Source: Phototrophicus methaneseepsis
Lineage (GTDB): Bacteria > Chloroflexota > Anaerolineae > Aggregatilineales > Phototrophicaceae
Assembly: GCF_015500095.1 (NCBI RefSeq)
Contig: NZ_CP062983.1
Coordinates: 4,898,001 to 4,962,000, forward strand
Length of the DNA: 64,000 nucleotides
Direction of reading: 5' to 3'
Shown here: positions 21,800-28,377 of the stretch, piece by piece
How positions within the stretch are numbered: position 1 is the first letter of the stretch
Layout: each line of letters opens with the position of its first letter
Position numbers and translations under genes: made by a program
The notes under the pieces: model-generated
Seen by the model: only the letters and a program-made list of their open reading frames with translations
Told to the model about the DNA's origin: nothing
Databases searched by the model: none

Positions 21800-22366
21800 A
21801 TGGCTGAGATAATGCGCTGCGGCTGGTGTGGTGAGGACCCGCTCTACCAGCAATATCATGATGATGTGTGGGGCGATCCAGTGCATGATGATCGTATGCT
21901 CTTCGAAATGCTCTGTCTGGAAGGCGCACAAGCCGGGCTGAGTTGGATCACAATTTTACGGCGACAGCAAGCCTATGAAACCTTGTTTGATCACTTCCAG
22001 CCGGAGGTTGTCGCCGCGTATGACGAGGCCAAAATTGACGAAATCGCCAAGGATGCGCGCATCATTCGCCATCGCGGCAAAGTCGCGAGCGTCGTCACCA
22101 ATGCACGAGCATTCCTCAAGGTACAGGAAGAATTCGGCAGCTTTGATGCATATATCTGGCAGTTCGTCGGTGGCAAGCCAAAGCTCAACGCCTTTCAGAC
22201 TTTATCTGAGATTCCCGCTCAAACGCCGGAATCCGAGGCGATGAGTAAAGATTTGAAGAAGCGCGGTTTTAAATTTGTAGGGCCGACAATCTGTTATGCC
22301 TATATGCAAGCCTGCGGCATGGTCAATGACCACACCGCAGACTGCTACAAGTACGTTAGTGCGTAG
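21800..22366 (+). CDS. tag: DNA-3-methyladenine glycosylase I
   Basis: Excises 3-methyladenine from alkylated DNA. The 188-residue protein has the structural zinc ligands Cys7, His20, His178 and Cys182, with spacings equal to E. coli Tag (4, 17, 175, 179). The catalytic Glu41 lies in CLEGAQAGLSW. FKFVGPTICYAYMQACGMVNDH is the typical C-terminal block. The start follows AAGGGGGA. It is convergent with the antiporter gene, with only 29 bases between the stop codons. Confidence 0.95.
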   Translation: MAEIMRCGWCGEDPLYQQYHDDVWGDPVHDDRMLFEMLCLEGAQAGLSWITILRRQQAYETLFDHFQPEVVAAYDEAKIDEIAKDARIIRHRGKVASVVTNARAFLKVQEEFGSFDAYIWQFVGGKPKLNAFQTLSEIPAQTPESEAMSKDLKKRGFKFVGPTICYAYMQACGMVNDHTADCYKYVSA

Positions 22367-24637: not shown

Positions 24638-25369
24638 CTAAGCAAGCCCTTCCCATTCCCAGGCTAGGAGGCCCTGTTTTTGCAGATATGCGTGGACTTG
24701 CTCAGGCTGCTGGAAGCGCGCCACAGTATGCGCCGAATTTTGCCGCCGTATGAATCCCATCTGCACAGGGTGTGGCCCCACACCGAGAAAGTCAAAGATA
24801 TGAGAGAAGGTCGCTACGTTCAGCAAATCCGTATAATGAAGATGCAGCCAGTTCCCATCAGCTTGATCACCCTTTGCAGCGCGTATCGCCTGCTGCAACT
24901 GCGCATAGGCCTCCTGATAGGTGGTGACATAGCTCGCAAAATCGACTTCATCCCAGGGCAGTTTTTCCGCCTGCGCGGGCACTTCGCCCTGCTTGAGCGT
25001 CCACTGGTTCGTCTGATGCGCGATTTTGAAAGATGAATACTGCGCAAGGATATTCGCCCTCTCCAGCAAGATAATCTTGAAGCGCGCGTCCTGCAAAACG
25101 TAATTGATGATATCTTCATCGTAAAAGAGCAAATGTTTGAAGCCTATGAGGGGCGTCTGCGCTCTAGCGAGTGTTTGCTCCAGGAAAGCGGCTCGGTCCT
25201 GATCGCGCCCGTGTAGCACAGCCTCGTCCCAGATTTCATCATCCGCCAGGAAGATGGCCCGCTCATGGAACAACTCGTTATGTGCTGTGATCATAGGATG
25301 CTGCGACAAACCATGCACCAGGAAATTCGAGCCTGTGCGTGCATGGCAGAGAATCACGTAAGCGCTCAT
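24638..25369 (-). CDS. Sulfotransferase-like (Stf0-type) protein
   Basis: A 243-residue protein with the N-terminal PAPS-binding loop of sulfotransferases (VILCHARTGSNFLVHGLSQHP, residues about 5-25), then AHNELFHERAIFL and a possible 3'-phosphate region (FKIILLERANILAQYSSFKIA). These resemble the Stf0/sulfotransferase superfamily. It would transfer sulfate from PAPS to an unknown acceptor. The start follows GAGGG. It lies 34 bases after the TIR-UDG gene on the same strand, so the two are probably co-transcribed. Confidence 0.75.
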   Translation of the reverse strand: MSAYVILCHARTGSNFLVHGLSQHPMITAHNELFHERAIFLADDEIWDEAVLHGRDQDRAAFLEQTLARAQTPLIGFKHLLFYDEDIINYVLQDARFKIILLERANILAQYSSFKIAHQTNQWTLKQGEVPAQAEKLPWDEVDFASYVTTYQEAYAQLQQAIRAAKGDQADGNWLHLHYTDLLNVATFSHIFDFLGVGPHPVQMGFIRRQNSAHTVARFQQPEQVHAYLQKQGLLAWEWEGLA

Positions 25370-25403: not shown

Positions 25404-26498
25404 TCAAATAAATAGCTTAAGTTTTTCAAAATCGCGCCGCAGGGTATCTTTCTGGCTGGCGCTATAGAGCACTACCGCAGGATGATACAGGGGCAAAACA
25501 TGAATCGGCCCATAGGGCATGGTGGCCTGAATGAGCTTACCATGTAATTGGCTAATTTTGCCGCGCTTCTCCGGCAAATCCAGCTTCTTGAGCAAGTACT
25601 CCATGGCGAAACGCCCCAACGTCGCAATTACAGCAGGCCGGATAATATCAACAATGCGATCTTGAAAAGGCGCATAAAAAGCGAGTTCTTCCCTATTGGG
25701 TGAGCGATTATCAGGCGTGCGATCCAAAACGATATTCGTCAGGTAAACATCATCTCTATCCAAGCCGATGCTCTGCATCATCTCGTCCAGCACATCGCCT
25801 GATGGGCCGATAAAGGGCCGCCCTTGTTCAACTTCTCTACTGCCTGGAGCCTCGCCAATGAAGAGGATATTGGCGTCAGGATTGCCTTCACCCAATACAG
25901 GGAAGTAGCGGTTCTCCGTGCGATAAGCATATAAAGGGGAATCCGTCGCCCGAACCAGATCATCACGAACGGCTTTAAGCTGGTCCGCTTTAAGGCGTTG
26001 TGTCTCTGTGTCCATGCGCGTCTTGATAGAGCTATTAGCAGGCATCGCCTCTTTAATGGCGCGGATGAGTTTTTCTACATCATGCCCAAAGCGCTGATGG
26101 CTGAGTTCAATCGCGTTACGCCTGACGAATGCCTGCAAATCATCTGGCAGCATATCCGGCGATGGCATCTGTGCCTGCCCAACTAGGACGGGAATCACCC
26201 ATTTTTGTTGTTTGAGCGCGCTGGCAATTTCCAACCGTACAAAGTCATTCCATTGATGCAAACGGCGCTCACCATTACCATCTTCTATCGTCGCCCACTG
26301 TGGGCCAATCATCGCCAGGAAGACATCACAACTGGCAACGGCGTCTTCCAACACCTGCACGAAATCAGCCCCAGGTGCGATGCTATCCACATCCATGAAA
26401 ATATCATCGACGCCGAACTGTTGCACCAGATGATCATATAATCGACCGACATAACCTTCGCTGTCTTGCCGCCGATAATTGATAAAAATACGCCCCAT
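25404..26498 (-). CDS. TIR domain - uracil-DNA glycosylase (family 4-like) fusion
   Basis: A 364-residue two-domain protein. Residues 1-150 are a bacterial TIR domain: FINYRRQDSEGYVGRLYDHL, IFMDVDSIAPGADFV, the SCDVFLAMIGPQW strand and FVRLEIASAL, where Glu90 is the likely NADase catalytic Glu. Residues about 165-364 resemble family 4 uracil-DNA glycosylases: GEGNPDANILFIGEAPG (motif 1 at 215-219), GRPFIGPSGDVLDEM, VYLTNIV with Asn255, and LYHPAVVL with His339-Pro340. The four cysteines that hold the 4Fe-4S cluster in family 4 enzymes are all absent; the only Cys, at 57, lies in the TIR part. It might recognise uracil or damaged DNA and trigger NAD loss, but this is inference. GGAG is about ten bases upstream of the start. 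Confidence 0.85.
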   Translation of the reverse strand: MGRIFINYRRQDSEGYVGRLYDHLVQQFGVDDIFMDVDSIAPGADFVQVLEDAVASCDVFLAMIGPQWATIEDGNGERRLHQWNDFVRLEIASALKQQKWVIPVLVGQAQMPSPDMLPDDLQAFVRRNAIELSHQRFGHDVEKLIRAIKEAMPANSSIKTRMDTETQRLKADQLKAVRDDLVRATDSPLYAYRTENRYFPVLGEGNPDANILFIGEAPGSREVEQGRPFIGPSGDVLDEMMQSIGLDRDDVYLTNIVLDRTPDNRSPNREELAFYAPFQDRIVDIIRPAVIATLGRFAMEYLLKKLDLPEKRGKISQLHGKLIQATMPYGPIHVLPLYHPAVVLYSASQKDTLRRDFEKLKLFI

Positions 26499-26619: not shown

Positions 26620-28377
26620 TTATGGCTGTTCATCCAGGAACCACAGGGCAGAACCATCTGCCTGCATTTCGATAATCTGGCGGCCGCCACTGTTGGCATA
26701 TATCGCGTCGCGCACGCCGTCGAGGCCGTTATCCCTGGCGACGACAATATCGCTATCCAGATATGGGCTGGTCACGGCCATGAGCATACCATAAGCGCGC
26801 CAACTCACCGCACCACCCGGCGTACTCGGCCCATTCACGATGACGATCAGTGGCGCATCACCAACGCGACGAGCCAAAACCTCATCAATGGTAGCCTGCG
26901 TGACCTGATTAAAGCCGTGCAGCACCTGGATACGCGGTATGGTGTAGGTCACAAAGGCCATTGCTGTCAGGATAATCAAGAGGCCATATGTGACACGCTG
27001 CAACCAGCGCCCTTGCGCAGCAAGCCATGCCAGCGGCAGTGCACTCAGCAGCGACACCGCCCCAACCATCTCGAAGAAATAACGCGTGCTATAACGCTGG
27101 CTGCCTGTCCAGTAGATCATGCTCAAAAGCAGCAAACAAGCCGTCAGGCTGATGAGCACCCAGGGCCAACGCAGCCGCCCCCGCAAGATCAACAGCGGCC
27201 ATAAAAACCATCCTACGCCACTGATAACCCACGCCCAACTAAACCAGACTGTCCGGCTCAGGTCTGGCATTGCAAAAATCGGCAGCAGCCAGGCAGCCAA
27301 TCCCAATACCCACAGCACAGTATAACGAGGGTGACGTCGCACCAGCGGCCATACAGCCATCAACACGCCAGGAATCAGCAGCAGCAAGCTCAGGCCAAGG
27401 TTTGGATAGTAAGAAGCACCTTCCAGCCAGTAGCGCACCACATTCCCATCAACAGAGCCAATTTGCCAACCAAATAAATCCGCCGCAGCCAGGGAAAGAT
27501 CAAAGCGCGCATGGTTGATCGCACGTCCCAGGTTATGACCACTACGCCCGCAGCACGCCCCAAATCCAGGGCGATCATAATCCCAGACGAGCACATACAG
27601 GTTCTTAAAGGGGTCGCCAGTCAGGGCAGCATTATAAATCCAGCCGATGGACATCACGAGCAAGGCCGCCGCAGAAAGCCATAGAAAAGGCTGTATACGC
27701 CGCCAGAGCATTTTCTGGCGTAAAGCGCGCCACAATACAGCCAATGACATCACCACACACACAAGCCCAATCCCCACAGCAGGTAAAGGCCGCGTGATAT
27801 AAAGCAGCCCCAACAGGGCCCCAGCGATGATCGCCAGCCGGATACGCCCCTGCAAGACGCCGCGCCACACCAGCAAAATACCCATCACACAACACAAAGC
27901 AATCGTGTGCCCCATCAGGCTGCTGCCGAGCAATAAGACCATCGGAGAAAATGCAACGAGCAAAGCCGCAATCAGCCCGGCATCTGCATTGAACCAGCGC
28001 CGACCTATGGCATAGGTGAGGGCCGTCAACAGCGAAGACAGCAGCGCATTCACGACCCAGGCTTGCCCTGCCGCCACGCCAAACGCCAGGATCATCGACC
28101 AACCCGGCGGGTATTTACTGGCACGCTGCCCGGTTGGCGCGTAATCAATCACGAAGGGCTGCCAGTACGCACGATAAGGAACTGGCGTATCTATCGTTAA
28201 CTGGCCCCCAGCGAAAACGCGTGCCTGATACAGATATGCCAGTTCATCTTCCAGATGTGGCAGCCGCTCCAGGCTTACACGGCTAAAAAATGCACTCAAA
28301 CCAAAGCTGAGGAAGACAAGAGCCACCGCAATTGCTGATTGCCAGTATTTTGTCATTTTTGTCATAGGGAGCGGCAT
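26620..28377 (-). CDS. GT-C-fold membrane glycosyltransferase (PMT/ArnT-like)
   Basis: A 585-residue integral membrane protein with about eleven hydrophobic helices. After the first helix it has an external loop with an acidic motif (LPHLEDELAYLYQARVF), as found in the catalytic Asp/Glu loop of PMT/ArnT-type GT-C enzymes. A second motif, APTGQRASKYPPGWSM, is typical of this group. The C-terminal ~110 residues are a soluble extracytoplasmic domain. It probably moves a lipid-phosphate-linked sugar onto a wall or membrane acceptor, perhaps the Thr-rich exported proteins. That acceptor is a guess. It is transcribed in the same direction as the TIR-UDG gene, 121 bases upstream of it. Confidence 0.82.
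   Translation of the reverse strand: MPLPMTKMTKYWQSAIAVALVFLSFGLSAFFSRVSLERLPHLEDELAYLYQARVFAGGQLTIDTPVPYRAYWQPFVIDYAPTGQRASKYPPGWSMILAFGVAAGQAWVVNALLSSLLTALTYAIGRRWFNADAGLIAALLVAFSPMVLLLGSSLMGHTIALCCVMGILLVWRGVLQGRIRLAIIAGALLGLLYITRPLPAVGIGLVCVVMSLAVLWRALRQKMLWRRIQPFLWLSAAALLVMSIGWIYNAALTGDPFKNLYVLVWDYDRPGFGACCGRSGHNLGRAINHARFDLSLAAADLFGWQIGSVDGNVVRYWLEGASYYPNLGLSLLLLIPGVLMAVWPLVRRHPRYTVLWVLGLAAWLLPIFAMPDLSRTVWFSWAWVISGVGWFLWPLLILRGRLRWPWVLISLTACLLLLSMIYWTGSQRYSTRYFFEMVGAVSLLSALPLAWLAAQGRWLQRVTYGLLIILTAMAFVTYTIPRIQVLHGFNQVTQATIDEVLARRVGDAPLIVIVNGPSTPGGAVSWRAYGMLMAVTSPYLDSDIVVARDNGLDGVRDAIYANSGGRQIIEMQADGSALWFLDEQP

Follow-up and report, generated by a model that had tools for sequence, protein, structure and literature searches.

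The gene at positions 25404 to 26498 of the window, the 64,000-nucleotide stretch of the Phototrophicus methaneseepsis genome analysed here, encodes a TIR domain joined to a uracil-DNA glycosylase (UDG) fold, and our comparisons suggest that this TIR-UDG protein is a previously undescribed alarm, contained in a single protein, that responds to DNA which is unusual or damaged. We put at about one in two the probability that it acts as a one-protein sensor-effector, in which a DNA-base reader controls an NAD-consuming TIR. This reading is favoured by the SARM1-like TIR, a kept uracil pocket next to altered catalysis-linked sites, purifying selection, the presence of other PF03167 proteins in the same genomes and the existence of a second, type-2 TIR-UDG. 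Against it stand the lack of consistent defence neighbours, an old-looking locus, the restriction to one order, a type 2 that looks fully enzymatic and a borderline test for two fusions.

Domains and conserved residues of TIR-UDG

The initial annotation had described an N-terminal TIR domain fused to a family-4-like UDG. The fusion is borne out by a single 364-aa open reading frame that occupies exactly 25404-26498 and on which profiles and folds agree, and the motifs that had been quoted (FINYRR, FVRLEIASAL with a Glu at residue 90, GEAPG, TNIV and YHPAVVL) are all present in its translation. The gene and its parts are as follows.

25404..26498, minus strand: TIR-UDG gene, 364 aa, ATG start, one open reading frame
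26049..26498, minus strand: TIR domain, residues 1-150 (Pfam TIR_2, SARM1 TIR fold match)
26229-26231, minus strand: codon of Glu90
25995..26048, minus strand: linker, residues 151-168 (low AlphaFold2 pLDDT at 154-157)
25407..25994, minus strand: cluster-less family-4-type UDG domain, residues 169-364 (profile, fold, alignment)

Residues 4-143 are recognised by Pfam TIR_2 (E 3.1e-13, 50.7 bits, cut-off 28) and residues 203-352 by Pfam UDG (E 2.3e-29, 102.7 bits, cut-off 24.3), while the C-terminal half also passes the NCBIfam family-4 UDG model TIGR00758 with 171.4 bits at a cut-off of 125.3. The AlphaFold2 model (47 sequences) has a mean pLDDT of 91.7 and a pTM of 0.61; because of this pTM and the floppy linker at residues 154-157, the placing of the two domains relative to each other in the model is uncertain. 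In fold comparisons of the separate halves, residues 1-151 match the SARM1 TIR (Z 18.8, 135 residues, 2.0 Å) and residues 169-364 match the Sulfolobus tokodaii family-4 UDG 4zbx (Z 29.3, 188 residues, 1.6 Å).

The likeness of the TIR half to SARM1 is also seen by sequence (1.6e-11), with Glu90 of the segment FVRLEIASAL aligned with the Glu of the SARM1 segment 'vhkeivtal', which we take to be the catalytic E642. Glu90, Tyr8, Arg9, Arg10, Asp36 and Trp68 are each identical in all 36 full-length members, the window's own protein included; thus, the catalytic-type Glu of the TIR is intact, as had been proposed. The layout of SARM1 includes ARM and SAM domains. TIR-UDG has neither, and a DNA-repair fold stands in the sensor position instead.

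The UDG half shares with family 4 (S. tokodaii 4zbx, T. thermophilus UDGa, TIGR00758) the fold, motif A (G215-E216-A-P-G), the Asn at N255 and motif B (H339-P-A). It differs from that family, apart from the fused TIR, in the Fe-S cysteines and in two further sites. The four Fe-S positions are occupied in the window protein by A184, S187, D259 and Y275; L258, D259 and Y275 replace the Lys, Cys and Cys of family 4. We compared these sites in 36 fused proteins, 25 cluster-less stand-alone (solo) UDGs, of which three belong to other orders of the class, and 18 Cys-bearing solos; these proteins were selected from a larger fetched set. None of the 36 fused members has a Cys at any of the four positions (one, L206, has a Cys beside the third), and the 25 cluster-less solos likewise lack all four; D259 and Y275 are invariant in both groups alike. 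The position of L258, which corresponds to Lys94 of UdgX and Lys83 of Tth UDGa, carries Leu in 34 of the fused proteins and His in the other 2, while it is Lys in 24 of the 25 cluster-less solos (Asn in the other) and Lys or Arg in all 18 Cys-bearing ones. E216, the counterpart of UdgX E52, is Gln in 5 of the 36 fused members and Glu in 31, compared with Glu in every solo of both groups, and the replacement by Gln requires at least three changes on the tree. In addition, Q282, which is invariant in the solos, is replaced in all fused proteins, and N264 and R260 are kept in only 8 and 22 of them, respectively.

The putative uracil pocket is retained. F229, N255 and H339 are present in all 36 fused members, as is the HPA motif, and by alignment these three residues are the counterparts of UdgX Phe65, Asn91 and His178, which are described in PMC10776899 as contacting uracil. 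UdgX E52 activates the nucleophile according to excerpts of PMC10776899 and PMC10359453. In the former, the UdgX Lys94Ala variant is both inactive and unfolded; therefore, the loss of this Lys in the TIR-UDG family must have had structural compensation. The resemblance to UdgX itself extends to the UDG fold (Z about 23-24) and the same uracil contacts, but TIR-UDG has GEAPG rather than GEQPG, lacks the KRRIH loop insertion and scores 95.7 bits against the UdgX model cut-off of 189.95.

From these comparisons, the description of the UDG half as family-4-like holds for the fold, the TIGR00758 match and the motifs, but it does not extend to the Fe-S ligands, which are gone, to the Lys, which is lost, or to the motif A Glu, which has become Gln in three places on the tree. 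The UDG half thus resembles a modified reader more than an ordinary family-4 glycosylase, although, with E216 retained in 31 of 36, many members may still cut uracil. Purifying selection acts on both halves: in nine pairs, dN/dS was 0.04-0.21 for the TIR and 0.02-0.17 for the UDG, with several pairs near saturation at silent sites. With values of 0.02-0.21 over both domains, the UDG half is no decaying relic.

Distribution, stand-alone relatives and a second fusion type

Of 154 genomes from the order Aggregatilineales (Chloroflexota, Anaerolineae), 40, P. methaneseepsis among them, encode TIR-UDG of the form seen in the window, referred to below as type 1. The carriers are spread over six families (29 genomes in f1, 2 in f2, 5 in f3, 1 in f4, 1 in f7 and 2 in f8), and the same domain order thus reaches beyond close relatives, a point on which the initial annotation had let its reading depend. 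The 40 comprise 36 full-length proteins, three that are cut by contig ends (G059, G021, G384) and one partial protein, a 289-aa frame in G388 whose match starts only at residue 75. A class-wide sample of 298 genomes contained three full-length TIR-UDG matches, all from the own family of P. methaneseepsis. When the genomes of 84,980 species were scanned with two type-1 patterns, 102 relatives were found; among the best 80 of these (79 loci), 36 are TIR-UDG, three of which are truncated at contig ends, and in our search the remaining 43 loci showed no frame with both domains. Thirty-five of the 36 are identical to proteins from the order's genomes, and the last one (L064) is the G384 protein by coordinates. 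A match labelled Bacteroidetes (L042) is G395 of the own family. Across the 154 genomes of the order, the class sample and the best 80 of the 102 relatives in the species scan, this form was found in one order only, and within it TIR-UDG is a conserved family, far beyond chance. We also considered carriage by mobile elements and rejected it, since no full-length type-1 match was present in 26 viral loci, 75 phage records or 448 plasmid records. TIR proteins as such form a large repertoire in the P. methaneseepsis genome (5.6 Mb), as seen from 32 TIR_2 matches, whose open frames are 205 to 1633 aa long.

The closest relatives of the UDG half are stand-alone UDGs with 48-60% identity, which occur in 50 of the 154 genomes. 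P. methaneseepsis itself has one such cluster-less solo, a 225-aa sister of the TIR-UDG domain (C1:2271634-2272233; L180 9632-10309). Cluster-less UDGs were found in Saccharibacteria and in several viral contigs as well, so that the loss of the cluster is not special to the fusion. The viral contigs L114, L117, L122 and L123 carry family-4-like UDGs without the Fe-S cysteines, and L114, which lies outside the compared groups, has the same Asp/Tyr replacements as the TIR-UDG lineage and a His at the UdgX Lys94 position. In two stand-alone family-4 UDGs (L181 of G009 and L182 of G041), the third Fe-S cysteine is His (VVKHRPP).

In three genomes (G004, G008, G026), the cluster-less solo is the sole PF03167 protein found, which suggests from its distribution that it is probably still a functional UDG. 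Disruption of the cysteines costs a family-4 UDG only part of its activity, as stated in an excerpt of PMC5295032. Another PF03167 protein is present in 26 of the 27 TIR-UDG genomes examined (27 of the 40). The exception is G037, a genome with a completeness of 71%; the other PF03167 proteins of G021 and G025 are only distant ones (38-57 bits). TIR-UDG in 40 genomes and the solo sister in 50 occur together in only two; we drew nothing from this apparent mutual exclusion, as many of the solo genomes come from a single genus.

A different TIR-UDG, type 2, was found in G061 (344 aa, L185 8244-9278, minus strand). It has another kind of TIR (FISHSTQD), matches Pfam UDG at 6.5e-38 and TIR_2 at 1.3e-24, and its UDG keeps all four Fe-S cysteines and the Lys. 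A relative with 56% identity, matched over residues 14-318, is encoded in G097 (C430:6554-7474); besides this one, both-domain matches to the type-2 protein among the matches listed are type-1 proteins. No type-2 protein was found in 447 plasmid records, and there was no pattern match in the viral contigs. The neighbouring frame at L185 7644-8210 resembles the biotin transporter BioY by sequence.

The two types are kept apart by strong branches in the UDG tree: type 1 (36 rows, support 100/99) is placed with the cluster-less solos, and type 2 (2 rows, 100/99) is nested among the order's Cys-bearing solos (20 rows, 100/99). Placing both types in a single clade gave a borderline result on this tree, with p-AU of 0.053 for all 100 rows and 0.047 for 70 thinned Chloroflexota rows, left after removal of 11 near-duplicates and of the rows from viruses and other phyla. 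On the TIR tree one clade was not rejected (p-AU 0.65), and the constrained tree scored better. The best matches of type 2 are to the Cys-bearing solos (47-54% identity, up to 213 bits), compared with 41-48% and up to about 137 bits to the cluster-less solos and 33-38% over both domains to type 1; these identities are only of slight help for a separate fusion. Chiefly because type 2 has four of the four cysteines and type 1 none, it is likely, but not proven, that type 2 arose by a separate second fusion. With its UDG motifs intact, at least this one TIR-UDG appears fully enzymatic, indicating that TIR and UDG can be joined with no loss of catalysis.

Genomic neighbourhood

In the window, a PMT_2-like gene precedes TIR-UDG by 121 bp and a sulfotransferase-like gene follows it after 34 bp, all three on the minus strand, and a DNA-3-methyladenine glycosylase I gene (TAG) is found nearby.

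26620..28377, minus strand: PMT_2-like membrane glycosyltransferase, upstream (Pfam PMT_2 25.6 bits, just below the cut-off of 26.1)
24638-25369, minus strand: small sulfotransferase-like gene, downstream of TIR-UDG
21800..22366, plus strand: DNA-3-methyladenine glycosylase I, TAG (Pfam PF03352 1.6e-83), 3 kb away on the opposite strand

Among 37 TIR-UDG loci, there was no universal neighbour and no recurring partner gene. The sulfotransferase-like gene has no homologue among the open reading frames called in the other 36 loci, and the PMT_2-like family is near TIR-UDG in 6 of the 37 and TAG in eight. By position searches in 27 genomes, 22 have a TAG match, 8 have TAG no more than 6 kb from TIR-UDG, and four (G015, G018, G042, G059) have it immediately downstream on the same strand. 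PMT_2 and TAG genes also adjoin in genomes without TIR-UDG, 46 bp apart in G004 and 1.0 kb apart in G001, with looser pairs at about 2 to 8 kb in G006, G036, G026 and G007. Because of these pairs, the TIR-UDG neighbourhood looks like an old chromosomal one, judging from gene order, and the link to TAG appears to be at least in part inherited order. As a functional partner, TAG therefore provides weak evidence for a repair connection only, and we do not claim the PMT_2-like gene and TAG as parts of a system.

The initial annotation had placed TIR-UDG in anti-phage defence. We searched a set of 106 neighbour proteins, consisting of 105 of the 131 nearest open reading frames and the window's TAG, from which near-duplicate loci and small or doubtful frames were left out; the frames were called by length, so that some are antisense shadows (the TAG of G059 was missed in this way). 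No recurring defence system was found in this set with PADLOC and Pfam (the 25 most frequent of 152 PADLOC models and of 183 Pfam models). Among these 25 most frequent PADLOC models, the top ones match at most 3 of the 106 proteins, and none is ThsA. The single matches are to AAA ATPases like AriA, HEC-01A, AbiLi and GajA in two proteins, to mad2/mad3 in two and to Uma2 in three. A defence island thus has no support among the 106 neighbour proteins, which is a lack of support and not proof of absence. The TIR-UDG architecture of the initial annotation is there, but its proposed defence role has no support so far, with no consistent defence system found alongside the gene in this set and a locus that looks old.

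Proposed mechanism and alternative readings

In the sensor-effector that we propose, the UDG fold would be a former family-4 repair enzyme turned reader, which may hold uracil, a related unusual base or a repair intermediate in DNA. Binding of the base would gather several copies of the protein or shift the TIR domains so that they pair, upon which the TIR active site around Glu90 could consume NAD+ or make a signalling ADP-ribose. The loss of NAD+, or the signal, would then stop growth or kill the cell. The purpose may be a response to uracil-rich or modified phage DNA or to badly damaged host DNA. A trigger of this kind was judged realistic on the basis of a part of PMC7824862.

The same reader and effector could also serve the host alone, with the cell's own uracil or base-excision intermediates as the trigger and TIR signalling stopping or killing badly damaged cells. 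We consider this unlikely. The old-looking locus with no consistent defence system nearby would fit such surveillance, and so would the closeness of TAG, which is at most 6 kb away in 8 of 27 genomes and directly downstream in four, but the pairing of PMT_2 and TAG in genomes without TIR-UDG leaves part of the TAG link to inherited order, and a patchy spread over 40 of 154 genomes suits an accessory role.

It also seems quite improbable that TIR-UDG is an active glycosylase variant for repair in which the TIR is a mere scaffold or oligomerisation module, since a scaffold would not need the invariant Glu90 and the other SARM1-type residues, the Lys-to-Leu and Gln replacements set the fused form apart from the compared solos, and other PF03167 proteins are at hand in 26 of the 27 genomes examined. 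What speaks for activity is the motif A Glu in 31 of 36 members with N255 and H339 in all, and loss of the cluster need not abolish it, given the genomes in which the solo sister is the sole PF03167 protein and the partial effect described in the part of PMC5295032 cited above. A further reading, to which we attach little weight, is that the UDG fold reads something besides uracil in DNA, such as a modified phage base or a free nucleotide or base. The remodelled loop after N255 (K258 to Leu, with N264 and R260 variably kept) and the replacement of Q282 in all members would agree with a changed ligand, and Brig1 offers a precedent for a modified phage base as substrate in excerpts of PMC11078745, whereas the uracil contacts F229, N255 and H339 are invariant.

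TIR-SAVED is one of the known proteins that join a TIR effector to a ligand-sensing domain. The same design is described in TIR-STING, TIR-APAZ/short Argonaute and CARF-TIR Cat1, according to parts of PMC9402430, PMC10474274 and PMC12162218. TIR-UDG differs from these fusions of bacterial immunity in that its sensor is a UDG fold and it has no recurring partner gene. Thoeris is also different (ThsB / ThcB), as the model NF058526 ThcB4 gives only a partial match with 41 bits against a cut-off of 220. Brig1 is described in excerpts of PMC11078745 as an antiphage DNA glycosylase that acts on glucosylated hydroxymethylcytosine, and its authors compare it with the UDG superfamily and the S. tokodaii UDG; it excises the base on its own, those excerpts speak of no fused effector, and we liken it to TIR-UDG by description alone.

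The initial annotation knew of no described TIR-UDG system, and we likewise found none in the openly licensed literature, as covered by titles, starts of abstracts and top-ranked matches. A term search within PMC7159879, PMC7824862, PMC10907252, PMC9266487 and PMC7075850 returned no passage on a TIR-UDG fusion; a passage of PMC7159879 names a DNA-glycosylase domain as something found rarely in a GTPase-centred conflict system. The design of a TIR plus a sensor is known, while a UDG-fold sensor is new as far as the openly licensed literature shows. More tentatively, at somewhat less than even odds, we propose that a base-excision repair enzyme became an innate-immune receptor, probably more than once; having lost the Fe-S cluster and part of the catalytic set, the UDG fold would have kept the uracil pocket for sensing uracil or modified bases in DNA and would thereby switch on the SARM1-like NADase to which it is fused.

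TIR effectors are known to act downstream of sensors for cyclic nucleotides, guide-bound nucleic acid and phage proteins. Coupling a TIR to a DNA-base repair fold would make DNA chemistry itself a further trigger, and this raises a testable question, namely whether uracil-containing DNA leads to NAD loss. If the sensor-effector reading is true, TIR-UDG would be a repair enzyme caught in the course of its conversion to a receptor, with the residues that were kept and those that were lost laid out in 36 sequences.
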